Shown one piece after another: positions 7,397-53,237 of a DNA stretch of 64,000 bases (positions are counted from its first letter, which is position 1; every line of letters starts with the position of its first letter). A program made the position numbers and the translations under genes. Where the stretch lies: NCBI RefSeq assembly GCF_013184985.2, contig NZ_CP063418.1, forward strand, positions 186,001 through 250,000. Direction: 5' to 3'. The notes beneath the pieces are model-generated. The model did no database searches and was not told the origin of the DNA. It saw nothing but the letters and a program-made list of their open reading frames with translations. Source of the DNA: Actinomyces faecalis (GTDB taxonomy: Bacteria; Actinomycetota; Actinomycetes; Actinomycetales; Actinomycetaceae).

Positions 7397-7435
7397 CTGG
7401 TTCACGATCCAGTCCCCCTGCGCCTGATCGGTGGG

Positions 7436-7481
7436 ATGGTGGACTCGGCCTCTGGACTGAGACTGAGGCTGAGTCCACCAT
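7436..7481 (+). terminator. Terminator after the GH101 gene
   Basis: A 17-bp stem (7436-7452 with 7465-7481, one G-T pair) and a 12-base loop, 39 bp after the GH101 stop. The tail is TCCTGCC and not a T run, as is common in high-GC actinobacteria. Confidence 0.7.
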
Positions 7482-7616
7482 TCCTGCCTGTTGAGTGTCC
7501 GCGTCCTGCACCGGGGTATTCGAGCCGCTGGGATGATCCAGGTAGGCTTCACACAGGCCGAGCCGTGAGGGGCTTTGGCACAGTGAGACGAGAAGTCACC
7601 AGCGTGATGAGGACCT

Positions 7617-8399
7617 ATGGCACAGCGAAACATGGACGACGACGGCCAGCCTCGCTACGGCCAGCGGGTGACCCCGGAGGAGCTGGAGCAGATCCGACGC
7701 GAGCAGGGGCTTGAGCCTCCGCCAGCCCGTGCCCCCCAGGGGGACGACGAGCAGAGGTGGAGCGCGCAGGCGTCCTCCCCGATGCAGCCGGGCTGGGGCA
7801 GTGAGGCCAACCCCTACGGCTACACAGGACAGCGTCCTGCTGCCGTGGGCGGGGCGCCGGGTGCCCCGGCGCCAGGCCAGCAGCCACCGGCCGGTGGCTG
7901 GTCCTGGCAGCAGGAAGCCGACCGCCAGCCCCGCAGACGTCGGTGGGGCATGCTCGTCACCGGCCTGGTCATGCTCATCGTCCTCCCGATCGCGCTGGGG
8001 GTGGGGGCCGTGCTGACGGTGGTCAGCGGGTCCTTGTCCACCGGTTCCGTGCTCACCGAGTCCGGCGAGGTCTACCTCGACCAGGGGCAGGCTGTGGGTC
8101 TGTACAGCTCGGACGCCTCGGTCTCCACGGAGCAGTGCTCCGTCACGGCTCCCTCCGGTGAGGCGGTGGAGGTGACGGCCATCGGCCAGGACCTGCCCTA
8201 CGCGAGCCTCACGGCGCCTGAGTCGGGGAGCTACACGGTCTCCTGCCCGGCCGGGACGCAGGGCGTCATCGTCGGACCGGCGCTCAACACCGACCGGATC
8301 GTGCCGGCCGGGGCCATGCTGCTGGGCGCAGGAGTCTGCGCTGTCATCGGGCTGGGCCTGACGATTGCCGGCCTGGTGCGCCTGACCCGACGCCGGTAG
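7617..8399 (+). CDS. Membrane protein of unknown function, two membrane segments
   Basis: 260 residues, not recognised as a named family. A hydrophilic Pro/Gln/Gly-rich cytoplasmic N-terminus (1-105) ends in the basic cluster RRRRW. A membrane segment follows (about 111-132, MLVTGLVMLIVLPIALGVGA), then an outer region of about 95 residues with two cysteines (EQCSV and VSCPA) that could form a disulfide, then a second membrane segment (about 230-253) and a basic tail TRRR. GAGG 5 bases before the ATG supports the start. It is monocistronic, between the GH101 terminator and the convergent S9 peptidase gene. Confidence 0.8.
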   Translation: MAQRNMDDDGQPRYGQRVTPEELEQIRREQGLEPPPARAPQGDDEQRWSAQASSPMQPGWGSEANPYGYTGQRPAAVGGAPGAPAPGQQPPAGGWSWQQEADRQPRRRRWGMLVTGLVMLIVLPIALGVGAVLTVVSGSLSTGSVLTESGEVYLDQGQAVGLYSSDASVSTEQCSVTAPSGEAVEVTAIGQDLPYASLTAPESGSYTVSCPAGTQGVIVGPALNTDRIVPAGAMLLGAGVCAVIGLGLTIAGLVRLTRRR

Positions 8400-8400
8400 A

Positions 8401-8417
8401 GGCTGGCTCGGCCAGCC
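8401..8417. terminator. Short hairpin between convergent genes
   Basis: GGCTGGC-TCG-GCCAGCC, a perfect 7-bp stem directly after the stop of the two-segment membrane protein and 40 bp from the end of the convergent S9 gene. It could serve either strand. There is no T run. Confidence 0.45.
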
Positions 8418-8456
8418 AGATGGCCGGCTACGCGAGCAGGAACGTAGCGGGCCTGA

Positions 8457-10748
8457 TCAGCCCAGCCGCCTCCAGGCAAAGGTGTGGATGAGGGCACCCA
8501 CCCAGGCGCGCTGGGCGTTGGTCGAGGCGCGGCCGTGCCCACCCTCCGAGTTCTCGAAGTAGGTGACGTCCTGTCCCATGGCGAGCATCCGGTAGGCCAT
8601 GGTGCGTGCGTGCGCCGGATGGACACGGTCGTCCCGCGTCGAGGTCACCAGCAGGACCGGCGGGTAGCCCACGCCCTCGCGCAGCAGGTGGAAGGGCGAG
8701 AAGGTACGGATGAACTCCCACTGGTCCGGGTCGTCCGGGTCCCCGTACTCGGCCTCCCAGGAGGCCCCTGCCAGCAGGTGGGTGTAGCGCTGCATGTCCA
8801 GCAGCGGGACCTCGCAGACCACCGCTCCCACGAGCTCGGGGTACTGGGTGAGCATGTTGCCCACCAGCAGCCCGCCGTTGGAGCCGCCGTGGACGGCCAG
8901 GCGTTCGGGGATTGTCACTCCGCGCTTAACCAGGGCACGGGCGACCGCAGCAAAGTCTTCGTACACCCGGTGCCGGTTCTCCTTGAGACCGGCACGGTGC
9001 CAGGCCGGACCGTACTCGCCTCCGCCACGGATGCCTGCGATGACGTAGGTGCCGCCGCGCTCCAACCAGGCCTTACCGGTCACGGCCAGGTAGCCCACGC
9101 CCATGGGGATCTCGAAGCCGCCGTAGCCATAGAGGATCGTGGGCGCCGGACCGTTCGTGGGGCGGCCGACCTGGAAGTACGGGACCCGCGTGCCGTCCGT
9201 GGAGATGGCCACGTGCTGGGTGGCGACCACGCCGGTGGCGTCATAGCGGCTGGGGGCCTGCCGCAGTACCTCGGTTGAGGCCAGGCGGCCGTCCGGGCCG
9301 AGCGAGCCCAGAGCCAGGGTGGTCGGCTGGGTGAAGGAGGAGATCGTCATCCACAGATCGTCGGACTCCAGGGAGTCGACGGCGCCCGCGGCCAGGTCCA
9401 CCAGCGCACGTCCCGGGCGCAGCAGCGTGGGATCAGGGTCCCCGCCGGCGGCACCGTCCGGGGCAGGCGCCGGCGTCGAGGGCGTGAGGGCGGTGGGGTC
9501 CAGGTCCTGCCGGTCCCACGGCCCGTCTGTCGCTGCGCCCGGCTGTGGGGGAGTGAGCACCTGGAGGGAGGCGACGACGTCGTCGAGCAGGGACAGGACC
9601 AGGTGGTGGGCGGTGTGTGTCCAGCCCTGGAGGAAGGCGGAGGCGGTCGGCGTGAACAGCGTGGTCAGGTGGCGGTCGCCGTCGAGCCAGGCGGCTAGCG
9701 GCGCGGCCAGCAGGCTGCCGGTCGGGTAGGTCTGCTCCGGGGTGGTCCAGGGCTCGCGCAGGTGGATGAGCAGGTAGTCCCACGCTGCCGAGACCTCGGC
9801 TGACTCGGGGACCTCGATGAGGCGGGCGCCCTCGGCGCTGACGGTCGAGGCGCCGTCGGGCGTCCTAGACGCCTCCTCGGCCGCGAACCTGGTTGCGTCG
9901 TCGGGCAGCAGCCAGGTGCGAGAGGTGTAGAAGGTTATCTGCTCGCTCAGCCACGTGCGTCCCTGACGGTCGCGGGCGGCGCCGGCCACCATGGAGGTGG
10001 GCGGGACGCAGAGCAGGACCTCGGCCTCGGCCAGGTCCTGACCCCGGCGCGCCCGGCGCACCTGGCGGGGGTAGCCGGAGGTCGTCAGGCTGCCCGGTCC
10101 CCAGTCGGCGGTCACGAGTACGCTCTGGCCCTCGTCGTCCGCCCAGGTCATCGAGCCCTTGGAGGAGGAGCGGTAGAAGCCGCCGTCCGCGGGGTCGATG
10201 AAGGTCAAGGTGTCCAGGTCGAGCTCGCGTGTGACGTCGGTGTCTGAGCCGCCGTCGGACAGGTCAATGAGCGCGCGGTGGCCGGCCAGGGGACCTGTGC
10301 GCAGGACGCTGGCGCCGTGCCACACCCAGGTCACGCCCTCGGCCTGTCCCAGCGCGTCCAGGTCCAGCAGGATCTCCCACTGGGTGGTGCCACCTGCCTG
10401 CGGGCCGCCGGCACGGTAGGAGTCCCAGGTCGTGCGACGCCACAGACCGCGAGGATGCTCAGCGTCAGTCCAGAAGTTATAGAGGTAACCGGCAGCCAGG
10501 CTAACACCAGGGATCTTGTCGGTGGAGTCGAGGATCTCCTCAATGCCCTCGCGCAGCTGCTCGAAGATGGGGTCAGTCTCGTAGACGGCGCGGGTGGTGT
10601 TGTTACGCACATCGACCCACGCCAGGGCCTGCTCACCCTCGACCTCGTCGAGCCAGGCGGGGACCTCCGGCAGGCAAGGGGCGGGCGAGGAGGCGGCTGC
10701 CCCGGCGGAGGCCTCTGCCTGGGCGGGCTGGTGCGGCGTCGTCGTCAT
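8457..10748 (-). CDS. S9 family prolyl oligopeptidase-like serine peptidase
   Basis: Predicted cytoplasmic oligopeptidase of the S9A type, cleaving short peptides, classically after proline. 763 residues from the ATG at 10748; an upstream in-frame start at 10826 lacks support. An N-terminal propeller-like region (about 40-480) precedes the alpha/beta-hydrolase domain. The catalytic triad can be read as Ser623 in GGSNGG, Asp707 in TRDDRVHP and His738 in EGGHG. No signal peptide is seen. It is the last gene of the minus-strand group with lysX, DUF998 and the hydrolase, 78 bp after the hydrolase stop. Substrate is unknown. Confidence 0.9.
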   Translation of the reverse strand: MTTTPHQPAQAEASAGAAASSPAPCLPEVPAWLDEVEGEQALAWVDVRNNTTRAVYETDPIFEQLREGIEEILDSTDKIPGVSLAAGYLYNFWTDAEHPRGLWRRTTWDSYRAGGPQAGGTTQWEILLDLDALGQAEGVTWVWHGASVLRTGPLAGHRALIDLSDGGSDTDVTRELDLDTLTFIDPADGGFYRSSSKGSMTWADDEGQSVLVTADWGPGSLTTSGYPRQVRRARRGQDLAEAEVLLCVPPTSMVAGAARDRQGRTWLSEQITFYTSRTWLLPDDATRFAAEEASRTPDGASTVSAEGARLIEVPESAEVSAAWDYLLIHLREPWTTPEQTYPTGSLLAAPLAAWLDGDRHLTTLFTPTASAFLQGWTHTAHHLVLSLLDDVVASLQVLTPPQPGAATDGPWDRQDLDPTALTPSTPAPAPDGAAGGDPDPTLLRPGRALVDLAAGAVDSLESDDLWMTISSFTQPTTLALGSLGPDGRLASTEVLRQAPSRYDATGVVATQHVAISTDGTRVPYFQVGRPTNGPAPTILYGYGGFEIPMGVGYLAVTGKAWLERGGTYVIAGIRGGGEYGPAWHRAGLKENRHRVYEDFAAVARALVKRGVTIPERLAVHGGSNGGLLVGNMLTQYPELVGAVVCEVPLLDMQRYTHLLAGASWEAEYGDPDDPDQWEFIRTFSPFHLLREGVGYPPVLLVTSTRDDRVHPAHARTMAYRMLAMGQDVTYFENSEGGHGRASTNAQRAWVGALIHTFAWRRLG

Positions 10749-10826
10749 GGGGGAAGTCCACCACGGGGCCGCCCGCTTGGCGAGCGGATAGCCCCGCCTG
10801 TGAGCATGTAGCCCGCAGGCGCGCAC

Positions 10827-11702
10827 TCAAGGGCATTCCTCCATGATTGGCCCCCGGTCGATCTGTCTGATCGCCGCCACGATCTGTGCGGGCGCGTCCA
10901 GCATCATGAGGTGGCGTGAGTCCGGCACCTCGTGCAACGTGACGTGGACGAAGGCCTGGCGTAGCGCCTCCTTCTGCGCCCTGCTCGCATAAGGCGGGGC
11001 CTGGAGGACGACGGCGCAGGTTGCCGCAGGAGCATCCTGGCGCCGACGCAACCGGTCCAGGTCGTCAGCCTGCTGACCGTAGGACAGCCACTCACCGGCT
11101 CCGGCCGCCAGTGCGGCACGCGAGTCCCACGCACCCGCCCACTCCTCTGCCACCACCTCGTGAGGGCGATGGGTCTGGGCGCGCAGGCCAGCCTGAAATC
11201 CCCTCCGCGCCAGGTGGCGTACCGGCCGCAGCGACAGCCCGTGACGGGCTGCCTGCCACAGGGGACCGGTCAACCCGGGCCGTCGGTTGGAGGAGACCAG
11301 CAACGAGGGGTCAACCAGGACGACGCCGTGGACGAGTCCCGGGCGTAGGCGTGCCAGGACCTCGGCCTGGAAGGCAGCCATCGAGTGGGCCACGACCGTC
11401 ACCGGGCCCAGAGCGAGCCGGTCCAGGGCCGTCGTGAGCACCCGGACCTCGCCCGGCAGCGTAGGTAGATCGTGCCGGATGGTGCCGTGGTAGCCGGGGC
11501 GGTCAACGGTGACGATCTCACGCTCTGGTAGCGCCTGCCAGACCCTCCGCCACCCGCCGGAGACCAGGCCCGCACCGTTGAGCAACAGCACAGGTGCGGG
11601 ACGCTCAGACCCCACTGGCGACGCCACGCCATCGCACTGCGCAGGACGGCGATACCTGAGGATGTGCTCCTCAGCTTTCCAGATTGCCCAGCACTGGCTC
11701 AT
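10827..11702 (-). CDS. Alpha/beta hydrolase
   Basis: 291 residues. Core alpha/beta-hydrolase features: an oxyanion strand VLLLNGAG, the DRPGYHG motif (67-73), the nucleophile elbow VAHSMA with Ser107, and a C-terminal DSRHLMM with His264. The elbow is A-H-S-M-A, so the classical glycines of GxSxG are replaced by alanines. Substrate is not predictable. The ATG overlaps the DUF998 stop by 4 bp (ATGA), so it is co-translated with that gene. Confidence 0.85.
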   Translation of the reverse strand: MSQCWAIWKAEEHILRYRRPAQCDGVASPVGSERPAPVLLLNGAGLVSGGWRRVWQALPEREIVTVDRPGYHGTIRHDLPTLPGEVRVLTTALDRLALGPVTVVAHSMAAFQAEVLARLRPGLVHGVVLVDPSLLVSSNRRPGLTGPLWQAARHGLSLRPVRHLARRGFQAGLRAQTHRPHEVVAEEWAGAWDSRAALAAGAGEWLSYGQQADDLDRLRRRQDAPAATCAVVLQAPPYASRAQKEALRQAFVHVTLHEVPDSRHLMMLDAPAQIVAAIRQIDRGPIMEECP

Positions 11703-44427: not shown

Positions 44428-44503
44428 GCCGTCTTAGCTCAGTTGGTAGAGCAGCTGTCTTGTAAACAGCAGGTCATCGGTTCGAGCCCGATAGACGGCT
44501 CCA
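44428..44503 (+). tRNA. tRNA-Thr(TGT) with encoded CCA
   Basis: Full cloverleaf: acceptor GCCGTCT/AGACGGC, D arm with AGTTGGTA, anticodon stem GCTGT/ACAGC with loop CTTGTAA (anticodon TGT), T loop TTCGAGC, discriminator T and CCA. The 3' part from 44455 is inside the 72-bp attachment repeat, so the element at 44.5-52.8 kb has integrated here and restored the gene. Confidence 0.97.
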
Positions 44504-44526
44504 CACTTTCCCCCGGAATCTCAACG
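44455..44526 (+). repeat. attL core (72-bp direct repeat)
   Basis: Identical to 52773-52844. It covers the tRNA-Thr from the anticodon stem through CCA and the first part of the downstream terminator. The next base differs (G here, A at attR). Confidence 0.95.
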
Positions 44527-44536
44527 GTTCCGGGGG
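44510..44536 (+). terminator. Terminator after tRNA-Thr
   Basis: CCCCCGGAA (44510-44518) pairs with TTCCGGGGG (44528-44536) around a 9-base loop. The left arm and loop are inside the att core, the right arm is on the element side, so the hairpin is a hybrid. It overlaps the approach to the int stop at 44543. Confidence 0.7.
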
Positions 44537-44542
44537 ATCGTC

Positions 44543-45874
44543 TTATCTGGCCTCAGTGGCCTTTGAACACATTTTGAGCACATTTCTTTTCGTCGCCGCG
44601 GCTCCCAGACGGTCCAGGGCCCCGGCCACGGCGTCCAGGTCGTCGGGGAAAAGGTCCGCGTAAGTGTCCAGCGTCATAGCCGCTGAGGCGTGGCCCAACA
44701 TGTTCTGCACCGCCTTCACATTGGCACCCGCGCTGATGGCCAGGGACGCCGCCGTGTGCCTCAGGTCGTGGACGGTGGGCCTCTTAAAGTCCCGGTCCCC
44801 CGCCCACAGGGGCGCGTCAGCTAGCGGGTCGCCGTCCCGGGCTCCAAGGAGGTTCCAGACGGCGGGCGTGGCCACCGGGTCACCCTCGCTCAGCGTCCGG
44901 CCCGTCAGGGCCTCTACGGCCTTCACGGTGGCCTTGTCGACAACCTCTGTCACTGGGACGCCTAGACGCTCTTGGAGGGCCCTCACGGCCCCTCCTACGG
45001 TCTCCCAGGCAGGCGTGAGCGCGTGGTCCTGGAGGTAGCTGCCTCTCAGCCTGCCTCCACGGGCCCCAACGAACAAAGGTTCGTCGCCGGGGCGACCGTT
45101 CGCCCGCTCCTCGATGATGTCAGCGAGGAAGAGAGGGTAGGCGACGGCTCTCCTGCCCTTACTGGTCTTAGGTTCGCCCTCGATGAGGGTTCCGCCTACG
45201 TCTGAGACGGTACGGACCACTCTTAGGCGGTGGGTGGTGGTGTCTGCGTCCTCCACGTTGAGGCCGGACATCTCTCCGATGCGTAGCCCGGTCCATCCGA
45301 GGGTCAGGATGTGGTCACTCCACGGGGTGCACGCGGCGGCTAGGCGTGCGAGCTGGGAGGGGTCCAGGTAGACGCGGGGCCGCTGCTTCATCTTGGGCAG
45401 GCTGGTGCCGGTGGCCGGGTTGGAGACGATCATGTGGTCACGCACGGCGGTGGCGAGGACCTTCGACAGGGCCCCGTGGGCCTGTCTGACGGTGGAGGCG
45501 GACAGGCCGCGCTCTGACAGCGCGCTCACCCACTCCTGGACGGCGGCGGGCTTGACCTGTGAGACCTGGACGCTGCCCCACCTGGGTAGGACGTAGGTGC
45601 GTGCCACGGAGTCGTCTTGGTGGAAGGTCTTGGGGCGTACGACGGCCTTGCGTGCTGTGAGCCAGTTGGTGGTGAGGTCTGCGACGGTGGTTCTTCCGGC
45701 TGCTACGGGGGTGAAGGCTCCGCGTCTCTTGGCGGCCTCCATCTCCTCGCCCCACACGGTGGCGTCGTGCTTGCGTCTGAAGCCGCGCTTCATGGTCTGG
45801 CGGCCTTCGGGGGTGCGGTAGCGGACCATGTACCGCTTCTCGCCCTTGCTGGTGGTGTAGGCGACGATGTTCAC
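44543..45874 (-). CDS. int: Tyrosine-recombinase integrase
   Basis: 443 residues. N-terminal arm-binding and core-binding (SAM-like) domains (about 1-170), then the catalytic domain with Arg in TGLRIGEMSG, the HDLRHTAAS box, His in LGHASAAMTL and the nucleophile Tyr in DTYADLF. The stop lies 16 bp inside the left attachment core, the usual place for a phage integrase. It catalyses integration into tRNA-Thr. A 19-bp repeat in its last codons (44564-44582) recurs near attR. Confidence 0.95.
   Translation of the reverse strand: MNIVAYTTSKGEKRYMVRYRTPEGRQTMKRGFRRKHDATVWGEEMEAAKRRGAFTPVAAGRTTVADLTTNWLTARKAVVRPKTFHQDDSVARTYVLPRWGSVQVSQVKPAAVQEWVSALSERGLSASTVRQAHGALSKVLATAVRDHMIVSNPATGTSLPKMKQRPRVYLDPSQLARLAAACTPWSDHILTLGWTGLRIGEMSGLNVEDADTTTHRLRVVRTVSDVGGTLIEGEPKTSKGRRAVAYPLFLADIIEERANGRPGDEPLFVGARGGRLRGSYLQDHALTPAWETVGGAVRALQERLGVPVTEVVDKATVKAVEALTGRTLSEGDPVATPAVWNLLGARDGDPLADAPLWAGDRDFKRPTVHDLRHTAASLAISAGANVKAVQNMLGHASAAMTLDTYADLFPDDLDAVAGALDRLGAAATKRNVLKMCSKATEAR
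44564..44582. repeat. 19-bp repeat near attL (possible arm site)
   Basis: TGAACACATTTTGAGCACA, identical to 52662-52680. It lies in the 3' end of int. Either an integrase arm-type site or a shared integrase 3' end. Confidence 0.7.
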
Positions 45875-45894
45875 GGGGCTATGGGTCCGTCCTC

Positions 45895-46133
45895 GAAGGT
45901 GGCAAAGGTGGCACGGTTATAGAGGGCTGCCACCTTCTGCCACCTTCGGGTTCCAGGGCAGCGCCAACCGCTGTTCGCGAAGGTGCCGAAGGTGCCAAAG
46001 GTGCCAGGACTATAGAGAGGCGACACCTTCTGCCACCTTCAGGGTTGGAAGTGGTCCCGGTCACTACCTGCGAAGGTCCCGAAGGTCCCGAAGGTCCCGT
46101 GGGTTTAGAGAGGGAGGACCTTCCGGGACCTTC
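45895..46133. repeat. Three palindromic arrays of 9-bp units next to int
   Basis: 298-bp gap between int and the repressor, without genes. Block 1 (45895-45947) has GAAGGTGGC units, a spacer with TTATAGAGGG, then GCCACCTTC units. Block 2 (45979-46040) uses GAAGGTGCC units and a spacer with CTATAGAG. Block 3 (46072-46133) uses GAAGGTCCC three times, a TTTAGAG spacer, then GGACCTTCC and GGGACCTTC. Each block has its own unit sequence, and in blocks 1 and 3 the arms match within the block. 45896-45954 is repeated inverted at 50215-50273. Confidence 0.9.
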
Positions 46134-46172
46134 GAGAGAGAAATCGACCGCCGTCATAGGTGGCGTCATAGG

Positions 46173-46649
46173 TCATTCGTCCTCGTCGTCCCTGACCTGT
46201 GTCTCCTCACCGACCTGGTCCCACTGGTGTGTGGCTTCCCACTCGGGGCGGTGGCTGACCTGGCGGGCTGCTGCTAGGCCGACGGGTGGTGGGGGCGGCG
46301 GGGTGGTTGGGAAGCGGCCGGTGACGACCACGCCGTCATTGTTGACTCGGGGCACTGCAACGAGCCCCAAAGCGAGCGCCTCCCATGGCAGGCGCTCACG
46401 TTCTTCGACGGCCGATACAGCATCGGCCATTACTCGGTCCGGTCGAGTCTGAGCACACAGGGCAATAGCCCCCAGTTCGTCAATCGTCATCGGGCGCTGA
46501 CCTAGCAACAACTGCGATAGGCGGCTACGGGAGATTCCAGACCTGTCGCTAACCGCAATCTGCGTCAGGCCTTGTGACGCAAGTCTCTCGGCCAGTATGC
46601 GGGCACACTCGCGCCCAACTTCACCAATGATGAGCGGTCCGCTTGGCAT
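46173..46649 (-). CDS. HTH-XRE repressor of the element
   Basis: 158 residues from ATG 46649. Helix-turn-helix near residues 25-60 (GLTQIAVSDRSGISRSRLSQ, then LLLGQRPMTIDELGAIALCA). A Pro-rich stretch (TTPPPPPPVG) and an acidic tail (VRDDEDE) follow. Position and orientation, divergent from the excisionase-like gene across three palindromic operators (46669-46741), fit the lysogeny or immunity repressor. Confidence 0.85.
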   Translation of the reverse strand: MPSGPLIIGEVGRECARILAERLASQGLTQIAVSDRSGISRSRLSQLLLGQRPMTIDELGAIALCAQTRPDRVMADAVSAVEERERLPWEALALGLVAVPRVNNDGVVVTGRFPTTPPPPPPVGLAAARQVSHRPEWEATHQWDQVGEETQVRDDEDE

Positions 46650-46668
46650 AAGCCAATCTTCACATGAA

Positions 46669-46741
46669 TCTGCGTATGCGGATAGCCGCACTTGCGGATC
46701 CTCATATGGGGATGTAACTTCAAGGTGTCCGCATTTGCGGA
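46669..46741. promoter_or_regulatory. Three operator palindromes between repressor and excisionase-like gene
   Basis: The best copy is TCCGCATTTGCGGA (46728-46741), a perfect palindrome. GCCGCACTTGCGGA (46685-46698) differs at two positions and TCTGCGTATGCGGA (46669-46682) at three. Their position in the divergent gap points to binding by the element's repressor. Confidence 0.8.
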
Positions 46742-46761
46742 ACGACCGAGAGGAACCGACC

Positions 46762-47019
46762 ATGCACTCACCGTCCCCCACCCACCCCACCGTGAGCGTG
46801 ATGCTCACCCCCGACGAGGCCGCGAAGCACCTTGGCGTCAAGGTCAGCACGCTCTCCTCGTGGCGCTACACCGGCGTAGGCCCCGCCTACTACCGGGTAG
46901 GCAACGGGCGCGGCTCAAACGTCCGCTACTACCTCGACGACCTCGACGACTGGCTCCGGGCCCGCCGCGTGGAGCCGGAGGCGGTGACCGAGAGTGCCGC
47001 CGCTGTCCGTACCGCCTGA
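46762..47019 (+). CDS. Excisionase-like small HTH protein
   Basis: 85 residues with a winged HTH of the HTH_17/Xis type: LTPDEAAKHLGVKVSTLSSW, then RYTGVGPAYYRVGNGRGSNV and the strand RYYLDDLDDWLRA. GAGAGGA precedes the ATG. First gene of the rightward operon, opposite the repressor. It could be the excisionase or an activator of the operon. Confidence 0.85.
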   Translation: MHSPSPTHPTVSVMLTPDEAAKHLGVKVSTLSSWRYTGVGPAYYRVGNGRGSNVRYYLDDLDDWLRARRVEPEAVTESAAAVRTA

Positions 47020-47173
47020 CGACGGCACCGCCGCCGCCCTGCTCGTCCTGGCCTTCTTCGTCCTCCCACTCTCCATTGAGCGGCTCCGTGGGCTAGTGGC
47101 CAGGCAAAAGCGAACCGCCGGAACGAAGCAGGTTCCGGCGGCTCAAACCCCCACCAACACGAACAAGTACTGA
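46994..47173 (+). CDS. Small single-pass membrane protein
   Basis: 59 residues from GTG 46994, overlapping the end of the excisionase-like gene by 26 bp. A hydrophobic segment (about 14-29, AALLVLAFFVLPLSIE) is followed by a basic tail (RLRGLVARQKR). GGAGG lies 12 bases before the GTG. It fills the gap exactly up to the ribosome-binding site of the next gene, which supports a real gene. Function unknown. Confidence 0.6.
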   Translation: MPPLSVPPDDGTAAALLVLAFFVLPLSIERLRGLVARQKRTAGTKQVPAAQTPTNTNKY

Positions 47174-47188
47174 AGGAGTGCTTCAACA

Positions 47189-47701
47189 ATGATCGACAAC
47201 CAGACCGCCAACGTCAACCCCGACGACCTTGACGACCTCGAAGAGGAAGAGATCTTCGACGAGCTCGCCAAGGGCAACCGCCCGCTCGTGACCTGGCAGC
47301 GGCCCGGTGACGGCACCGTAGACCACATCGACGTCTTCGCCTCCCCGCTGAGCCTTGAGGAGGTCCGATCCGTCGTCCGCACCCTGACGTGGCTCGCGGA
47401 GGAGCTGGCCGGTGAGCTGAGGGAGTGCGAGCCGTGGTGCACGCGTACCCACGCCACCGGTGCCCCGTGCTCCCGTGTCTACGGCTACGCATGCACCGAG
47501 CAGGACCCGGAGGCCCGTATCGCCCGGGAGGCCTTCGACGACGGCGTGCTGCACCTGGTAGGCCCCACCTATCAGCAGGTGGAAGCGCTCCAAGGCGATG
47601 AGCTGCGAGCCGCCGCCAGGGCATTCATGCGGGCCGCCTACGACCTTGACAGCTACGCCCGGACCCTTGAGGACGAGCAGCGGGCGGGTGAGGCGGCGTG
47701 A
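47189..47701 (+). CDS. Hypothetical protein of the element, Cys-containing
   Basis: 170 residues. An acidic N-terminus (DDLDDLEEEEIFDELAKG), a central strand-rich part (VDHIDVFASPLSLEEVRSVV), and a cysteine cluster CEPWCTRTHATGAPCSRVYG that resembles DUF6907-type WC..H patterns and could bind zinc. GAAGGAG precedes the ATG. Its stop overlaps the next GTG start. Confidence 0.8.
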   Translation: MIDNQTANVNPDDLDDLEEEEIFDELAKGNRPLVTWQRPGDGTVDHIDVFASPLSLEEVRSVVRTLTWLAEELAGELRECEPWCTRTHATGAPCSRVYGYACTEQDPEARIAREAFDDGVLHLVGPTYQQVEALQGDELRAAARAFMRAAYDLDSYARTLEDEQRAGEAA

Positions 47702-48147
47702 GCCTGATCTACTGCCTCCCGGTCCCCGACGGCGAGGTCAGCCCGCGTCATCTGGCGGCCCTGACCACCTCAGGGATCACGACAGCGGTTCGCACGGCGG
47801 GCGTGTCCCCCTTCGAGAACGCGCTGAGGCCGGGCGAGTACCTGTTCGACCTGGCCACCGCCCACGTCCGGGGCGGGAAGGTCATCCGGGCTGCTGTACC
47901 GAAGGACCTGTCCCTGAGGGAGATGGCTCGCGTAGCCACGGGCCTTCTGCAGCTCGACACCTACCCCGATGTGGTCGGGCCGCTCATTGAGAGGTCCGAG
48001 GCGTGCAGCCGTCACGACGGCTGCACGCTAGTGACTATCGGGGTCCCGGCGGGGGACCTGCTGGCCTCCGAGGCCGAGCGCCTGTGCGCTGAGGCCGACC
48101 ACGGCTGCGTCATGGCCACCACTGCCAGCACGGAGGTGACGGCATGA
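47698..48147 (+). CDS. Hypothetical protein of the element
   Basis: 149 residues, unrecognised. GTG start in a GTGA overlap with the preceding gene, and its own end overlaps the next ATG, so it is translationally coupled on both sides. Mixed alpha/beta composition with a CSRHDGCTLVTIG segment. No known motif. Confidence 0.75.
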   Translation: MSLIYCLPVPDGEVSPRHLAALTTSGITTAVRTAGVSPFENALRPGEYLFDLATAHVRGGKVIRAAVPKDLSLREMARVATGLLQLDTYPDVVGPLIERSEACSRHDGCTLVTIGVPAGDLLASEAERLCAEADHGCVMATTASTEVTA

Positions 48148-48461
48148 CGACGGCGGCACTGACCCCCGCTCAGCGCGACGCCCTGGCAGAACGCACCCTG
48201 CATTCAATGCCGCACCCGCCGTGGTGCGACGGGGAGAGGGTGTGCTGGGTTGACGTTGAACCAGACGGGCAGGTGCTGACCTACCACCGCCGCCGTTTCC
48301 CCGCTGTCACTGTTGAAGAGCGCTTCGACGGGAGCGTGGCTGCCTGCCCGGACTACATGGACGAGATGACCAGCGTCGCCGACATGCTGGCCTGTGCGTG
48401 GGACTTCGTGAGGGCCGCGGCCCTGACGTGGTGGCTGAGCCGTGGCCCGGCCCGGCACTGA
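48144..48461 (+). CDS. Hypothetical protein of the element
   Basis: 105 residues, unrecognised. ATGA overlap with the preceding gene. It contains HPPWCDGERVCWVDVEPDGQ with two cysteines, similar in style to the WC..H segment of the 170-residue protein two genes upstream, and a hydrophobic C-terminal helix (MLACAWDFVRAAALTWWLSR). Confidence 0.75.
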   Translation: MTTAALTPAQRDALAERTLHSMPHPPWCDGERVCWVDVEPDGQVLTYHRRRFPAVTVEERFDGSVAACPDYMDEMTSVADMLACAWDFVRAAALTWWLSRGPARH

Positions 48462-48548
48462 CCGTCAGGTCGGCGCCCTCCCCCGGCCCCTTGGGCTGCG
48501 CGCCCCAGGGGCCGGGGCCCCACCCCTCACGGCTGGGGGTGAGCGGGC

Positions 48549-49046
48549 GTGGGAGAGCAGCGGTTCGCTGACCTGAACCTCCGCGACCTCGCCGACACCG
48601 CCGAGAAGCACCTGCGTCAGGCCCTGGCCCGTACGGAGGCCGTCATGGCGTCCCAGCTGCGTCAGGCCCTGGCCCACAGTGCCAGCGGGCCCCTACCGGA
48701 GTGGATGGGGCGGGTCGACACCCTGACCCCGGAAGGGATGAAGGCGGTCACCGACACCGTGGCCATGGGGGAGCGCACCGGGTACCTGGCTGGCTGGCAG
48801 GCCGGGGCGTCCCAGGCCGGGGCCCTGCAACGACACCTGGGACGGGCCGAGGGGCAGGCGATGGCCCTACGGGCCCTGGCCGACGGCAGCACCCGCTACC
48901 TGACCGCCCACGCCCGAGCGCTCGGTGCCGACCTGGCGCGGGGCCGGGAGGCGGTACCTGACTACCCGGCCCTGTGCGAGCTGCGCGGCGAGGCCGAGCG
49001 CGCCGCCCGAGCACGAAGGACCCTGCAAGAAAGGAGGATCGCGTGA
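48549..49046 (+). CDS. Helical hypothetical protein of the element
   Basis: 165 residues, almost entirely helical and Ala/Arg/Leu-rich (for example LADTAEKHLRQALARTEAVM). Unrecognised. The GTG at 48549 follows GGGGGTGAGCGGGC. It overlaps the GTG start of the ATPase gene by 4 bp, so a partner or loader of that ATPase is possible. Confidence 0.75.
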   Translation: MGEQRFADLNLRDLADTAEKHLRQALARTEAVMASQLRQALAHSASGPLPEWMGRVDTLTPEGMKAVTDTVAMGERTGYLAGWQAGASQAGALQRHLGRAEGQAMALRALADGSTRYLTAHARALGADLARGREAVPDYPALCELRGEAERAARARRTLQERRIA

Positions 49047-50422
49047 GCGACCAACAAGACCAGGACGACGTACGCCGCATCGTCCTGACCCCCGCGTCCC
49101 GGATCACCCCCAGGAAGGTCCGGTGGGCGTGGAAGTGGGAGGGTGACGGGCGCATCCCGTCCGGGTCCCTGGCCCTGGCCGCCGGACGTGAGGGGACCGG
49201 CAAGTCCTCGTTCGGCATGTGGCTGGCCGCTCAGGTCACCGCCGGGACCCTGCCCGGCACCTACGAGGGCGAGCCCAGGAACGTGCTGTACGTGGCCGTT
49301 GAGGACTCCTGGGAGTACACGCTGGTTCCCCGCCTCATGGCCGCCGGCGCGGACCTGGACAAGGTGTTCCGGGTACAGGCCACCGGCGTGCTCGACGAGG
49401 AGGTGGCCCTGACCCTGCCTCTGGACAACGCCAAGCTTGAGCAGGCCATCACGGACACGAGCGCGGCGATGGTCGTGTACGACCCGCTGATGAGCCTGCT
49501 CGGGGAGAGGCTGTCAGCATCCAGGTCCCGTGAGGTCCGCCTGATGCTTGACCCGCTGGTCCGTATCGCACAGGCGACCGACTGCATCATGCTGGGTATC
49601 GCCCACCACAACAAGGGCAGCCACTCAGACCCCATCATGGCGGTCTCGGAGTCCAAGGCGTGGACGGACGTGCCTCGCAGCGTGTTCGCCTTCGCCCGGG
49701 ACGAGGAGAACCAGTGCCGGGTTATGTCCCAGACGAAGAACAGCCTTGGCCGCGACCCCTCCTCCCTGCCCTCCCTCCGCTACCAGATCGAGCCCGCCGC
49801 CGTGCAGCTGTCCGACGGGACCGGGGACGTCGGCCGCTTCGTGGTCACAGGCGTGTCTGACAAGAGCGTGGCGGACCTGACCCGCGAACAGGCCCTCGGA
49901 GACGACGCGGAGGACCGTAACGCGGCACAGGCCTTCGTCTTCGACTACCTGGCCCGCAACGGGGGCGAGGCTGAGGCCGGGGACGTGATCAAGGCCGGAC
50001 GGGCCGCGGGCTTCAACGAGCAGACCATCAAGGACGCGCGCCGTCGGATGACCTCACCCAAGGTTGACAGCCGCAAGGCATCCATGGGGTCTGCCTGGGT
50101 ATGGGCCTTCCGGGAGGAGACCTCAGCCTCCGAGGAAGGTGGCACGAAGGTGGCGAAGGTGGCAAAGGTGGCAGAACTTAAGGACGTTGCCACCTTGGTG
50201 CCACCTTCGGACCCGGAACCCGAAGGTGGCAGAAGGTGGCAGCCCTCTATAACCGTGCCACCTTTGCCACCTTTGCCACCTTCGCCACCTTCGGGGCGAC
50301 CCGTTCAGGGAGGGTTCATGCCCTTCGACGCCACCGGCTCGCAGGACGTCTACTGCCCTCACGGTGGCCCTGTCGGCATGTGGTGCACTGAGTGCCCGGG
50401 GGGTGTGGCCACAGCAGCATGA
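49043..50422 (+). CDS. RepA-like AAA ATPase of the element
   Basis: 459 residues from GTG 49043, preceded by AAGGAGG at 5 bases. RecA-like ATPase of the AAA_25/RepA helicase type: Walker A GREGTGKSSF (about 49-58), Walker B AMVVYDPLMSLLG, and the sensor-like IMLGIAHHNKG, then a C-terminal winged-helix-like part (AGDVIKAGRAAGFNEQTIKD). Probably a replicative helicase for the excised element. The last 80 residues are encoded by the 9-bp palindromic array (VAKVAKVAEL, then PPLPPLPPSPPSG), so this tail may be a by-product of DNA sites. Confidence 0.88.
   Translation: MSDQQDQDDVRRIVLTPASRITPRKVRWAWKWEGDGRIPSGSLALAAGREGTGKSSFGMWLAAQVTAGTLPGTYEGEPRNVLYVAVEDSWEYTLVPRLMAAGADLDKVFRVQATGVLDEEVALTLPLDNAKLEQAITDTSAAMVVYDPLMSLLGERLSASRSREVRLMLDPLVRIAQATDCIMLGIAHHNKGSHSDPIMAVSESKAWTDVPRSVFAFARDEENQCRVMSQTKNSLGRDPSSLPSLRYQIEPAAVQLSDGTGDVGRFVVTGVSDKSVADLTREQALGDDAEDRNAAQAFVFDYLARNGGEAEAGDVIKAGRAAGFNEQTIKDARRRMTSPKVDSRKASMGSAWVWAFREETSASEEGGTKVAKVAKVAELKDVATLVPPSDPEPEGGRRWQPSITVPPLPPLPPSPPSGRPVQGGFMPFDATGSQDVYCPHGGPVGMWCTECPGGVATAA
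50135..50292. repeat. Palindromic 9-bp unit arrays inside the repA-like gene
   Basis: Block 4 (50135-50208): four GAAGGTGGC-type units, a spacer, then GCCACCTT units. Block 5 (50222-50292): two GAAGGTGGC units, spacer CTCTATAACCGT, then four GCCACCTT(T/C) units. 50215-50273 is the exact inverted copy of 45896-45954 beside int. Confidence 0.9.
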
Positions 50423-50592
50423 GAACCGTCCCCAACAGCGCGGGTGTGCCCTGCGTCCCAGACCCGACAGACTCCCGGGACCTCACCCGGCTGGTGACCC
50501 TCACCGGGGCGTGGTGCACCGTCTGCCACCTGCCCCGGACCCCCTACCCCGGAAGCCCGGGCTACCACCCCACCTGCCAACCACACACCTAG
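50419..50592 (+). CDS. Small CxxC protein of the element
   Basis: 57 residues; ATGA overlap with the ATPase stop. WCTVCHLPRTPYPGSPGYHP ends in TC, giving CxxC...H...C, a possible zinc site. Fits the coupled operon. Unrecognised otherwise. Confidence 0.65.
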   Translation: MRTVPNSAGVPCVPDPTDSRDLTRLVTLTGAWCTVCHLPRTPYPGSPGYHPTCQPHT

Positions 50593-50601
50593 GAGGACCT
50601 G

Positions 50602-50772
50602 ATGGCACACAGGCACGGCGCGGGACGCACCCGCAAGGCCAGGCAGTCCACCCGCTACCCGATGACAGGCCCCGGCTACCTGCACCACCACCGGGACCTG
50701 GCCGGCCCTGACCTGGCCCGCTACCGGCGGGACCTCAGCACCTACCAAGACAAGATCAAGGAGGAAGCATGA
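50602..50772 (+). CDS. Small basic protein of the element
   Basis: 56 residues, starting MAHRHGAGRTRKARQSTRYP, His/Arg/Tyr-rich, ending YQDKIKEEA. AGGAGG lies 5 bases before the ATG and the stop overlaps the next ATG (ATGA), strong signs of a real gene. Possibly a DNA-binding or capsid-associated protein; this is inference. Confidence 0.7.
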   Translation: MAHRHGAGRTRKARQSTRYPMTGPGYLHHHRDLAGPDLARYRRDLSTYQDKIKEEA

Positions 50773-51209
50773 CCACCACCGACACACTCACCCCCGAACC
50801 CCTCCCAGACGAACCGCAAGACCTCGACGCCACAGACACGCAGCCAGAGCCGTCAGAGCGCGCTAGAGGCAACGCCGAAGCAGCTAAATACCGGGTACGC
50901 GCACGCGAAGCAGAAACCGCCCTAGAAGAGCTCCAAGGCCGCTACGGGGCGCTACTACGATCCAACGTTGAGGCAGCCCTCCCCAACTGGATGCCTAAGG
51001 CCGTCTTCAGCAAGTTCGAAACCGACCCCACCCGCTTTCTGTCCGAAGACGGGGAAGTCAACACCGCCGCCGTACGCGACAGGGCAACCAGCCTCGCCAA
51101 GGAGATCGGACTACCCGCACACCCCCCACTCAAGCCCGACCCGGCACAGTCACCCACCCCCGCAGGTATTGACACACCATCCTGGCTTGACGTTCTACGC
51201 AGACGGTAG
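50769..51209 (+). CDS. Phage scaffold-like protein
   Basis: 146 residues. An acidic, Pro/Thr-rich N-terminus (1-38), a coiled-coil segment (about 40-68, KYRVRAREAETALEELQGRY), and a globular C-terminus. The coil and the position directly before the capsid gene match small scaffold proteins of actinophages. GGAGGAAGC precedes the ATG. It probably guides assembly of the capsid protein. Confidence 0.75.
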   Translation: MTTTDTLTPEPLPDEPQDLDATDTQPEPSERARGNAEAAKYRVRAREAETALEELQGRYGALLRSNVEAALPNWMPKAVFSKFETDPTRFLSEDGEVNTAAVRDRATSLAKEIGLPAHPPLKPDPAQSPTPAGIDTPSWLDVLRRR

Positions 51210-51293
51210 AATGACAGTCAGGAACCCCACCCACGGCCCGGAGTCGTGAAGGGGAGAATCCAGCAGCCCCAGCAGGGGCAGCATGGGACGGCC

Positions 51294-51334
51294 AGAGGCC
51301 ACCACGCACAGCACATGCTCACGTGGTGGCCTCT
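51294..51334 (+). promoter_or_regulatory. Strong hairpin before the capsid gene
   Basis: A perfect 13-bp stem, AGAGGCCACCACG (51294-51306) with its complement (51322-51334), and a 15-base loop, 43 bp before the capsid ATG. A smaller GCCCC-AGCA-GGGGC stem precedes it. No T run, so it may be a leaky terminator, an RNA-stability element or a translational control site. Confidence 0.6.
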
Positions 51335-51376
51335 ATCTGTACCAACGGCCACCACCCTCACAGGAAGACAACCACG

Positions 51377-52231
51377 ATGGCCGAAACCATGACCACCAAC
51401 GGACAGCCCTTCGCCTGGATGCCACAGAGCATCGAAGAGCTAGTCGTCCAGCCCGTCACCCGCGAGTCCGTCGCCCTGACCGCCGCCGGAAGCACCCGGC
51501 TACAACAGGACTGCGACGGCTTCCGCGTCCCAGTCGTCACCAAGGACCCCGTAGCCGCATGGGTCAAGGAGGGCGAAGAAATCCCCCTGTCCGGCTCCAA
51601 GGTCGCCGAGGTCGCAGACCGCTTCCACAAGGTCGCAGGCCTGAGCGTCCTTAGCCGCGAGCTCATCCTCGACTCCTCCCCCGACATCGCCAAGCATGTA
51701 GGCGAGGGCCTAGCCCGCGACATTGCCCGCAATGTTGATGCCGCCTTCTTCGGCAAGCGTCAGGACGGCGACACCACCGCCCCAATCGGCATCGCTGAGG
51801 TCCCCGGGATCGGCACCGTCTCAGCAGGAGGAGAGTGGACGAACACAGACGTGTTCATCACCGCCGCCTTCCAGGCACAGCTAGAAGGAGCCACCCTGTC
51901 CTCCTTCGTCGCCAACCCCGCTGACGCAATGACCCTGGCACAGATCAAGGAGCAGGCAGGTTCCCAGCGCCTCCTCCTCAACCCCACTCCCACCGCCGTC
52001 GCACCGCTGACCCTGGCAGGTGTCCCTCTGTACGTCTCACCCACCGTCGAGGAGGGAACCATCTGGGGGCTGCCCCAAAACCGGATCAAGATCGGCGTAC
52101 GCGAGGATGTCGAACTCACTCGCGACGAGTCCGCGTTCTTCACCTCAGATCGCATCGCCATCCGCGCCACCATGCGCGTAGCGTTCCTCTACCCGCACCC
52201 CGCCGCGATCCAGAAGATCACCAAGGCCTGA
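51377..52231 (+). CDS. HK97-family phage major capsid protein
   Basis: 284 residues. Typical HK97-fold signatures: the E-loop/N-arm region with TRLQQDCDGFRVPVVTKDPV and AAWVKEGEEIPLSGSKVAEV, then the helix LILDSSPDIAKHVGEGLARD, AAFFGKRQDG, FVANPADAMTLAQIK, GVPLYVSPTV and a C-terminal strand RIAIRATMRVAFLYPHPAAI. It lacks a delta-domain or protease fusion. ATG at 51377; no strong Shine-Dalgarno is seen. It is the only clear structural gene of the element apart from the scaffold-like protein. Confidence 0.92.
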   Translation: MAETMTTNGQPFAWMPQSIEELVVQPVTRESVALTAAGSTRLQQDCDGFRVPVVTKDPVAAWVKEGEEIPLSGSKVAEVADRFHKVAGLSVLSRELILDSSPDIAKHVGEGLARDIARNVDAAFFGKRQDGDTTAPIGIAEVPGIGTVSAGGEWTNTDVFITAAFQAQLEGATLSSFVANPADAMTLAQIKEQAGSQRLLLNPTPTAVAPLTLAGVPLYVSPTVEEGTIWGLPQNRIKIGVREDVELTRDESAFFTSDRIAIRATMRVAFLYPHPAAIQKITKA

Positions 52232-52508
52232 TATGCAGCTCACTGCATAAACCCCCGGGAGAAACCCCTCCCCAAGGCCTCCTGATCGCTCCGCGTTTAG
52301 GCGCTCCGATCCTGTACGGGTTTTCAGGTCGACTTGAGCCCCGGTCCTGCATATTCATACCCGGGTTTCCAGGGTACGCACCGCGAGGATGAGACAAGAA
52401 AAGCGGGACTAGACCACCGCGTTCATAGCAGCCCGAAGGCTGCGGCCCGTTATCTCAGGGCTGGCGACGGATTCATCCCGCTCACCATCAGCCTACCGCG
52501 AGCAAAGA

Positions 52509-52546
52509 GAAGCGCCCCGGATGACAACCATCATCCAGGGCGCTTC
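52509..52546 (+). terminator. Terminator after the capsid gene
   Basis: GAAGCGCCC (52509-52517) pairs with GGGCGCTTC (52538-52546), with an inner GGATGA/TCATCC stem and a CAACCA loop. About 280 bp after the capsid stop. Confidence 0.65.
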
Positions 52547-52661
52547 CCTGCTCCGAAAAGGCACCCATGCCGGAACGCACCCCCACCCTAGACACCCCCA
52601 CCGACACAAACCAGAGGCCCGTGAAATCCCTTGACGTGTCAGCGCTTAACCAGAGACTCCG

Positions 52662-52680
52662 TGAACACATTTTGAGCACA
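52662..52680. repeat. 19-bp repeat near attR
   Basis: Identical to 44564-44582 in the int 3' end, same orientation. Candidate arm-type integrase site or integrase remnant. Confidence 0.7.
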
Positions 52681-52772
52681 ATCTCTCTCAGAACACCCGC
52701 ATTCTGACATGCTCACAGGACGCCGATTCGGCGGATTCTCAACGATTCTGGCGCCATTGCAACGGCCTATAT

Positions 52773-52844
52773 CTGTCTTGTAAACAGCAGGTCATCGGTT
52801 CGAGCCCGATAGACGGCTCCACACTTTCCCCCGGAATCTCAACG
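52773..52844 (+). repeat. attR core with tRNA-Thr 3' fragment
   Basis: Perfect copy of 44455-44526. It is not a second tRNA gene because it starts at the anticodon stem. Imperfect similarity to the int 3' end continues after it (52845-52890: CGGGGGATCGT, then TATCTGGCC), a possible remnant of an older integrase. Confidence 0.95.
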
Positions 52845-53237
52845 ATCCCGGGGGATCGTGCTATCTGGCCCTGGTCGTCTTTGGGCATGTTGTGGGCGTG
52901 GTCCTGGACGGGGTGCGTAACTCCGTCGTCGACGTTCCTTGCGGTACCGGTGGCGGCGTGCCTTCCAGGTGTGGTGGCGTGCGTCCCTGGGATCGCGGCG
53001 TGCGTTTCTGTGGTGAGGGCGTGCCCCTGTTCTGAAGGCGTACCTGGCGACGTCTGTGCGCACGCCGCCATGACGCAGGCGCGCCCCGGTGCGGCTGATA
53101 CACGCCGCGACGAGACGAATACACGCCGCGACGAGACGAATACACGCCGCGACAAGACGAATACACGCCGCGACCAGGCGAACACACGCCGCGACGAGAC
53201 GAATACACGCCGCGACGAGACGGGGGGGGGGCGCTCG
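52845..53237. other. Gene-free region with minisatellite
   Basis: 393 bp between attR and the ung stop. A decayed integrase-like tail (52845-52890), degenerate repeats centred on GGCGTGC (about 52940-53075) and the 21-bp array. The long minus frames that cross it translate repeats and tRNA sequence and are not accepted as genes. Confidence 0.6.
53100..53231. repeat. 21-bp minisatellite ending in a G10 tract
   Basis: Units of ACACGCCGCGACGAGACGAA plus T begin at 53100, 53121, 53142, 53163, 53184 and 53205; the sixth runs into ten G (53222-53231). The array stops 6 bp before the 3' end of ung. Units 3, 4 and 5 carry a few substitutions. Confidence 0.95.

Follow-up and report, generated by a model that had tools for sequence, protein, structure and literature searches.

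A mobile element of Actinomyces faecalis raises the question of how DNA that carries a phage capsid gene, and no recognised large terminase, portal or tail gene, could spread. The stretch analysed, here called the window, is 64,000 nucleotides long (assembly GCF_013184985.2, contig NZ_CP063418.1, positions 186,001 to 250,000 of the forward strand), and the element occupies positions 44455-52844 in it. The perfect 72-bp att repeats and the size of about 8.3 kb that an earlier note on this DNA had described both hold, the repeats being set 8,318 bp apart (Table 1). In our reading it is probably a phage satellite of the cos type, one that supplies scaffold and capsid proteins itself and would borrow the terminase, portal and tail of a helper. 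Because it combines its own shell gene with the apparent packaging signal of a resident prophage, hijacking of that phage is its most likely means of spread.

The same genome contains the likely helper, a prophage of 39.8 kb (G000:C1 840685-880548) flanked by 23-bp repeats at tRNA-His. Pfam searches of 10 of its proteins returned HNH, a Terminase_7 small terminase subunit (TerS, 2e-51), an SPP1-type portal, capsid and integrase, and the gene ahead of the capsid gene is scaffold-like by position. The large terminase subunit (TerL) of this prophage has a weak TerL_nuclease match (0.0016) and matches the terminases of 1,822 phage records, that of Juicebox at 57%. Positions 52231-52333 of the window (103 bp) are 89.3% identical, in the same orientation, to prophage positions 860624-860522. 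In the element this block starts at the capsid stop; in the prophage it occupies the gap between the HNH and terS genes and extends into the HNH frame by a few bases. A search of the 2.70-Mb genome with the block gave two matches at E<=0.001 and no third copy. In A. urogenitalis there are four matches (a satellite, a prophage and two 39-bp cores), and none was found in eight further genomes tested.

The placement of the block recurs in two other species. A. urogenitalis has a satellite (L002) and a prophage of its own (L138) that share the same block at the same two places, with 84% identity over 101 bp, and the TerL of that prophage is 98.2% identical to the TerL of the prophage in the window genome. 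The A. culturomici satellite (L003) and prophage (L140) share a different block, 80% identical over 101 bp, which sits after the satellite capsid gene and between the prophage HNH and TerL genes; a second block, of 104 bp and 86.5% identity, is shared elsewhere by the two. When the A. faecalis block was compared with 50,697 phage records, five matches to four distinct actinophages were obtained (E 0.3 each), all at record positions 13-46, close to the left end. The end of Luchador (...CGGTCGGTTA/TGCGTCCGAGCCATCCTGTACGGGTTTCCAAGTCGAC) aligns with the element (...TCGCTCCGCGTTTA/GGCGCTCCGATCCTGTACGGGTTTTCAGGTCGAC), and Anon is similar. Since the element aligns with the Luchador genome end, a nick is predicted near 52299/52300. 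In Juicebox no annotated gene lies between HNH and the genome end, and Alyssa1, a phage record whose capsid is related to that of the element, begins with CGACCGGTCGGTTATGCGGG, the Luchador type. Luchador gene 5 (NC_028849.1 2735-3208), directly after HNH, is labelled minor tail, and the same slot in Anon is labelled terminase small subunit; the Luchador label is perhaps a mislabel.

Further observations were made around these searches. Homologues of orf5 (31%), orf7 (53%) and orf9 (49%) occur in a region of A. urogenitalis (L161, G046:C65:30001-50000, ~3686-10848) that also has a cos core, at 9688. The region gave no capsid match and may represent a satellite that uses the same helper but lacks a capsid gene. 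Another cos core lies near a tRNA-Ser (L160, G046:C67:378001-398000, position 10235), and no homologue of the element's proteins was found beside it. In the A. faecalis genome, outside both prophages, 124 bp at 911157-911276 match the orf5 region at 76% (E 5e-9). As the genes downstream resemble those beside L161, the stretch at G000:C1 ~908000-911300 could be a degraded copy of this second A. urogenitalis element. Two other candidate helpers in the same genome were set aside. A compact second prophage of ~17 kb (G000:C1 881500-899050) encodes a terminase and a portal, and its capsid, in a long post-portal frame, seems by eye to be fused to a protease; the element's best match there is 23 bp (E 0.006). 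The third capsid locus (1602666; L136/L137) gave no match to the element.

The earlier note had reported that terminase, portal, protease and tail genes are missing. Neither Pfam nor PHROG recognised a large terminase, portal, protease or tail gene in the element, nor was any hallmark of a prophage or its remnant found there, whether as whole large terminase, portal or tail genes or as pieces. Indeed, none of these families occurs at Pfam E<=0.001 among 97 proteins, 12 from the window and 85 from seven relatives, whose 19 Pfam families, all listed, include 8 capsids and 8 integrases together with replication and regulatory proteins. The scan of 10 prophage proteins likewise recognised no protease. 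For another 12 elements, with 134 proteins, the 25 of 40 Pfam families listed include 12 capsids and 9 integrases. Here terminases do appear: Terminase_4 in two proteins, Terminase_6N in one, and phrog_1496 (terminase small subunit) in three (PHROG tallies for relatives list 25 of 79 and 25 of 74 families). In L097 (G523) TerL is split between two genes at 7488-8921, encoding an ATPase of 249 aa and a nuclease-like protein of 228 aa (E 0.002 for the latter). In G343 a TerL N-terminal match lies close to the capsid gene, and five IMG/VR contigs have TerL-like matches (L031, L032, L037, L039 and L040). A gene of L019 matches phrog_226, labelled minor tail, at 2e-16, while Pfam places it weakly with Terminase_7 (0.003), so it is terS-like. 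The lineage thus spans forms with only scaffold and capsid to terminase-bearing ones. No portal or tail block was found at the same place in any of 20 bounded or circular elements, 12 of them judged from the 25 of 40 Pfam families listed.

A survey of distances between capsid-profile loci and PF03354, PF04860 and PF03237 in 33 genomes gave a similar picture. At 20 capsid loci of >=115 bits no PF03354 terminase or PF04860 portal lies within 30 kb on the contig (some contigs are short), and two of them (G523, G343) have a PF03237 match within 2 kb. For 12 loci at 91-110 bits, a PF03354 terminase is 3.3-4.0 kb away in seven. These three models miss the likely helper's own TerL and SPP1-type portal, so the survey is supporting only, and the absence of packaging genes rests on the whole-element Pfam tallies.

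The element has the traits of an integrated element: its own integrase, att repeats, and a site that is vacant in relatives. attL covers the last 49 bases of tRNA-Thr(TGT), which remains whole, and the gene next after attR is ung. Among 19 same-genus tRNA-Thr loci found in a search of 49 genomes, ung lies within ~1.4 kb of the tRNA in 15, and no ung was seen near the tRNA in the remaining four. At one such empty site, in A. urogenitalis (L117), the alignment with the joined flanks of the window crosses the junction. The capsid gene is patchily distributed, with matches at E<=1e-10 in 8 of 213 family genomes, own genome included. Immediately beyond attR, at 53066-53222, are 21-bp tandem repeats of the CGACGAGACGAATACACGCCG type.

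Searches with the capsid protein found six relatives among the genome contigs searched, and a capsid profile matched 27 of 396 order genomes at E<=1e-25, own genome included. In its own genome the protein has one match at E<=0.001, and the Pfam model finds three other capsid loci. IMG/VR gave no match to the single capsid sequence and 34 loci to the capsid alignment; among the latter, terminal repeats occur in L054 only (127 bp), a distant relative. Across 67 loci, 47 (many of them short viral contigs) plus 20, tRNA-associated att repeats were found at 18 including the window. The 17 relatives span 7.5-10.9 kb (in bp, window 8318, L002 8383, L003 7828, L004 9236, L017 8604, L019 8767, L021 7543, L024 9053, L046 10386, L097 8996, L098 8753, L099 9545, L102 9352, L103 9049, L108 10587, L110 10912, L113 7791 or 7511, L115 8915). 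The att calls are less sure for L018, L100 and L109 (no tRNA), L017 (15 bp) and L113 (two candidate pairs). L112 (G372:C35), a contig of 9,087 bp that carries a family capsid, has a 95-bp terminal repeat, consistent with a circle of 8,992 bp. Modules vary among the relatives (tyrosine or serine integrase; AAA_25, Prim-Pol, Toprim, DUF3631 and others), and att-bounded relatives at different tRNA genes have a similar gene order and size. The earlier note had proposed searching genomes for the same gene order and the same missing genes; the architecture does recur in relatives, some of which carry terminase genes. L023 consists of two diverged related elements in tandem, ~8.8 kb apart and ~80% identical in the DNA that aligns. 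A second peak at 7-10 kb in the length of the longest contig (24 of 120 capsid homologues among the matches listed, of 293) is suggestive only.

The capsid gene is under purifying selection. Between the window and A. urogenitalis its dN/dS is 0.096, compared with 0.26 for the scaffold-like gene and 0.32-0.61 for four other open reading frames (ORFs). The AF2 model of the protein is confident (mean pLDDT 91.1) and HK97-like; Foldseek ranks phage capsids and HK97 first (best E 6.5e-16), with encapsulins lower. In a 75-row tree, the six capsids that have a PF03354 terminase nearby group in a clade of their own (SH-aLRT 99). The window falls in a separate clade of 57 rows (SH-aLRT 99), which includes contigs with TerL-like matches and whose IMG/VR members were not looked at individually. 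The tree is a quick one, midpoint-rooted, with SH-aLRT support only and several long branches, and it was built without L009, L010 and L015 (duplicates), L073 (internal stop) and the likely helper's capsid.

Table 1. Coordinates of the features of the element in the window
Feature	Position	Strand	Evidence or remark
tRNA-Thr (TGT)	44428..44503	+	ARAGORN; integration target, 3' part inside attL
attL	44455..44526	none	72-bp perfect repeat
Tyrosine integrase, 443 aa	44543..45874	-	Pfam PF00589 1.5e-15; phrog_1 4e-63
Three iteron palindromes, 93 bp apart	45894..46136		AAGGTGGC, AAGGTGCC and AAGGTCCC types around a short core
HTH repressor, 158 aa	46173..46649	-	HTH_3 4e-7; ORF could reach 46850, start predicted
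Divergent control region, operator-like	46650..46761		palindrome TCCGCATTTGCGGA at 46728 and further TGCGGA half-sites
Excisionase-like HTH_17 protein, 85 aa	46762..47019	+	Pfam 1.4e-11; phrog_66 3e-11
orf4, function not assigned	47189..47701	+	kept in A. urogenitalis element, 64% aa
orf5, function not assigned	47698..48147	+	kept in A. urogenitalis element, 73% aa
orf6	48144..48461	+	no Pfam/PHROG family above cut-off
orf7, function not assigned	48549..49046	+	53% homologue in second cos-bearing A. urogenitalis region
RepA/DnaB-like AAA_25 ATPase, 459 aa	49043..50422	+	Pfam 3e-25; phrog_10729 (DNA polymerase/primase) 2e-61
Second iteron array	50135..50293		within 3' end of ATPase gene
orf9, small conserved protein	50419..50592	+	85% in L002
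orf10, small conserved protein	50602..50772	+	73% in L002
Scaffold-like protein, 146 aa	50769..51209	+	precedes capsid gene; motif common to relatives; phrog_12880 E 0.08 only
HK97-fold major capsid protein, 284 aa	51377..52231	+	Pfam Phage_capsid 3.9e-28; ATG start chosen, ORF opens 51323
cos-like packaging block (putative)	52231..52333	+	89% identical to prophage HNH-terS gap; predicted nick near 52299/52300
attR	52773..52844	none	72-bp perfect repeat

The gene order is simple. The integrase and repressor genes read leftward, and the HTH_17 gene, four ORFs without known function, the AAA_25 gene, two small ORFs and the scaffold-like and capsid genes read rightward. All 12 ORFs taken as genes are open, in agreement with the earlier note's description of them as intact, and its integrase, repressor, excisionase-like protein, RepA-like ATPase and capsid are each recognised by Pfam at the values in Table 1; PHROG labels agree with Pfam in the main. 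For the scaffold-like protein it named, position and a motif common to relatives (seen in the alignment) speak for the label, and the one direct match is weak. One cluster of such proteins sits ahead of the capsid gene in 8 of 13 regions compared. The repressor start, formerly put at 46850, is probably 46649 instead.

The present analysis adds iterons, operator-like repeats and the cos-like block to what had been described. GAAGGTGGCA occurs in 10 copies in the element, in the array at 45894-46136 and inside the ATPase gene, with no copy in the rest of the window or in 100 kb of chromosome elsewhere. In the A. urogenitalis relative, four CGAAGGTGG units directly follow the integrase gene; in L004, short tandem repeats come directly after a 580-aa gene without a Pfam family, and in L003 repeats lie downstream of the Prim-Pol gene. 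The iterons at 45894-46136 form a candidate replication origin and the AAA_25 ATPase is a probable replication helicase. With Prim-Pol or other replication genes in relatives, it is plausible that the element replicates by itself. The HTH_3 and HTH_17 genes stand back to back with an operator-like palindrome between them, a layout that would fit a lysogenic switch. Cross-regulation through a shared operator is not supported, since TCCGCATTTGCGGA is absent from the five prophage-bearing stretches searched.

A second strong match joins the element to the 39.8-kb prophage: 46177-46303 corresponds to the 3' end of the prophage repressor gene over 127 bp at 97.6%. The HTH parts of the two repressors differ (prophage gene at G000:C1 876844-877326), and a C-terminal tail of ~36 aa is nearly identical. 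This tail could let a helper antirepressor act on both. A sensitive comparison adds weaker matches, among them 37 bp of the scaffold-like gene, where both sides encode LKPDPAQS, and stretches at 61-67%.

Starting from what can be read directly from the genomes, namely the element with its borders and relatives, the selection on its capsid gene, the site left vacant in relatives and the block common to element and prophage, we propose the following cycle. The element would sit in tRNA-Thr, silenced by its own repressor, until an active helper phage, likely the tRNA-His prophage, derepressed it. It would then excise as a circle, and the AAA_25 helicase would drive replication from the iterons. 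The element's scaffold and capsid proteins would assemble into a small shell, of a size to take about 8-9 kb; by the scaling of HK97-type shells, 8-11 kb would fit near T=3. The helper terminase, with its HNH nuclease, would cut at the helper-type cos site in the satellite DNA and fill the shell, and particles would be completed with the helper's portal and tail.

Several findings weigh against this account. The pairing of satellite and prophage holds in three of eight genomes tested; G184, G156, G523, G289 and G493 share no such block with the prophages compared, G156 having a 93-bp capsid-gene match only and G493 element ends that were undefined in the comparison. In these five the wrong prophages may have been compared, or the rule may be narrower. 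The phage matches to the block are individually weak, and it is from position and similarity together that we infer a cos role. Some relatives (G523, G343, L019, the five IMG/VR contigs and others) do hold terminase genes. The excisionase-like protein also matches phrog_57, labelled terminase small subunit (1.7e-6), and to this extent the reported absence of terminase genes is qualified; the match is weaker than that to the excisionase family phrog_66, and both run through the HTH domain. No primase is recognised among the element's proteins, though some relatives have one. Finally, the element capsid aligns with that of the likely helper over 135 aa only, at 27% identity.

This last point bears in both directions, as it also speaks against an alternative modelled on SaPIbov5, in which the satellite capsid protein would mix with the helper's and shrink its shell, with cos mimicry as in our proposal. 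In SaPIbov5, according to the available text of PMC8569155, the capsid-type protein Ccm, a homologue of the helper capsid protein, alone suffices among satellite proteins for size redirection, and no portal is recognised in the element, as this alternative would have it. SaPIbov5 brings one capsid-type protein and relies on the helper terminase (PMC8569155), and the combination of a capsid-type gene with a helper-type cos sequence, the trait of cos-type SaPIs, is present by sequence in the element. Ccm, however, forms only the pentamers of a mixed shell, sitting in those of phage phi12, and cannot make capsids alone (PMC8569155). Here, in contrast, a scaffold-like gene accompanies the capsid gene, in the element and in relatives, no protease is recognised, and the capsid falls in a clade apart from the sampled terminase-adjacent capsids, in a tree without the helper's. 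Ccm also has a delta domain (PMC8569155), for which the 284 aa of the element capsid would leave no room, to judge by length. We therefore consider redirection unlikely. That the shared block is a regulatory or recombination sequence, packaging using something else, would be compatible with any of these readings and is quite improbable. The repressor tail and the second A. culturomici block are also common to satellite and prophage, so some exchange is not about packaging. Against this, two satellites have the block right behind the capsid gene and two prophages have it in the HNH-terS gap; it also aligns with the genome ends of actinophages, and a third pair has a different sequence at the same placement.

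The two remaining explanations deny that the element is a working satellite. The earlier note had favoured a satellite over a decayed prophage and had named related elements carrying the missing phage genes at the same place as the sign of a deletion remnant. Followed up in part, this search turned up terminase genes in some relatives with related capsids, which means that gene loss or gain occurs in the lineage, and a portal or tail block in none of the 20 elements, 12 of which were judged from 25 of 40 Pfam families. A remnant that kept integrase, replication and capsid genes by chance is very improbable because the site is empty in relatives, the capsid dN/dS is 0.10 and 17 relatives measure 7.5-10.9 kb; perfect att repeats, open genes, the like gene order of relatives at different tRNA genes and the position of the cos-like block after the capsid gene speak against it as well. 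The preference for a satellite is thus upheld by recurring architecture and size, purifying selection, the empty site, the capsid tree and the prophage-matching block. Encapsulins also use HK97-fold shells, and some appear in the Foldseek list, which would suit a capsid island domesticated by the host, encapsulin-like or serving phage interference, and no longer mobile. The complete integration module, patchy distribution, empty sites and cos-like block make this barely credible.

The satellite reading places the element among known systems, each of which it resembles in part. Elements of the phiRv1/phiRv2 type carry a capsid gene with a prohead protease, and phiRv1 has a serine integrase; unlike them, the element has no protease family among its proteins by Pfam or PHROG. 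Its kind is already known in the phylum, as candidate PICIs defined by integrase plus capsid, phiRv1/phiRv2-type elements included, are in print for Mycobacterium (PMC10654092, in the portions available). Like the element, these are integrated in Actinomycetota; some lie in tRNA genes and some have helicase, scaffold or terminase genes. Their induction by phages is not demonstrated there, and the available portions mention no shared cos sequence for them. The cos-like block common to a satellite and its resident prophage is new here. With cf-PICIs the element shares a satellite-encoded capsid in a small integrated element (definition restated in PMC10690885, seen in part). However, cf-PICIs have genes of their own for capsid, protease, portal, connectors, both terminase subunits and HNH, and tails are all they need (PMC10690885), whereas the recognised head genes of the element are the scaffold-like and capsid genes. 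The Streptomyces satellites MulchRoom and MiniFlayer are also from actinomycetes and encode capsid and scaffold, but they encode terminase, portal and adapter too, according to the same portions of PMC10690885. That paper was the only one found on Actinomycetota satellites with a major capsid protein, and none was found for Actinomyces, in a literature search that excluded most subscription papers and all preprints. The best capsid matches in the phage collection (30.8%) are records of ~11 kb from Mycolicibacterium aichiense, such as Alyssa1 (OR387110). Alyssa1 resembles the element in having a capsid gene without an annotated portal and a left end like the cos of Luchador, and differs in its serine integrase, a 135-aa gene labelled terminase, an adaptor, a stopper and a gene labelled tape measure. 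It (L008, OR387110.1) and 11 sister records of ~11 kb, all with a capsid of the element's family, are filed as Mycolicibacterium phages; judging by Alyssa1, the one examined, they look like satellites filed as phages.

A broader proposal, which we think could equally well prove right or wrong, is that a distinct lineage of shell-only satellites extends across Actinomycetota. Each member would have a scaffold-capsid pair of its own, derived from a single old capsid clade, build a dedicated small shell and copy the cos of the local helper, changing helpers by swapping a block of about 100 bp while the shell lineage stayed fixed. If the satellite reading of the element is right, a satellite that supplies scaffold and capsid only would fill a gap between whole-particle thieves and whole-head builders, with three natural satellite-prophage pairs readable from genomes. 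Helpers could be sought simply by matching the DNA after the capsid gene to HNH-terS gaps, and the lone-capsid puzzle of phiRv1-type elements would become testable in other actinobacteria.

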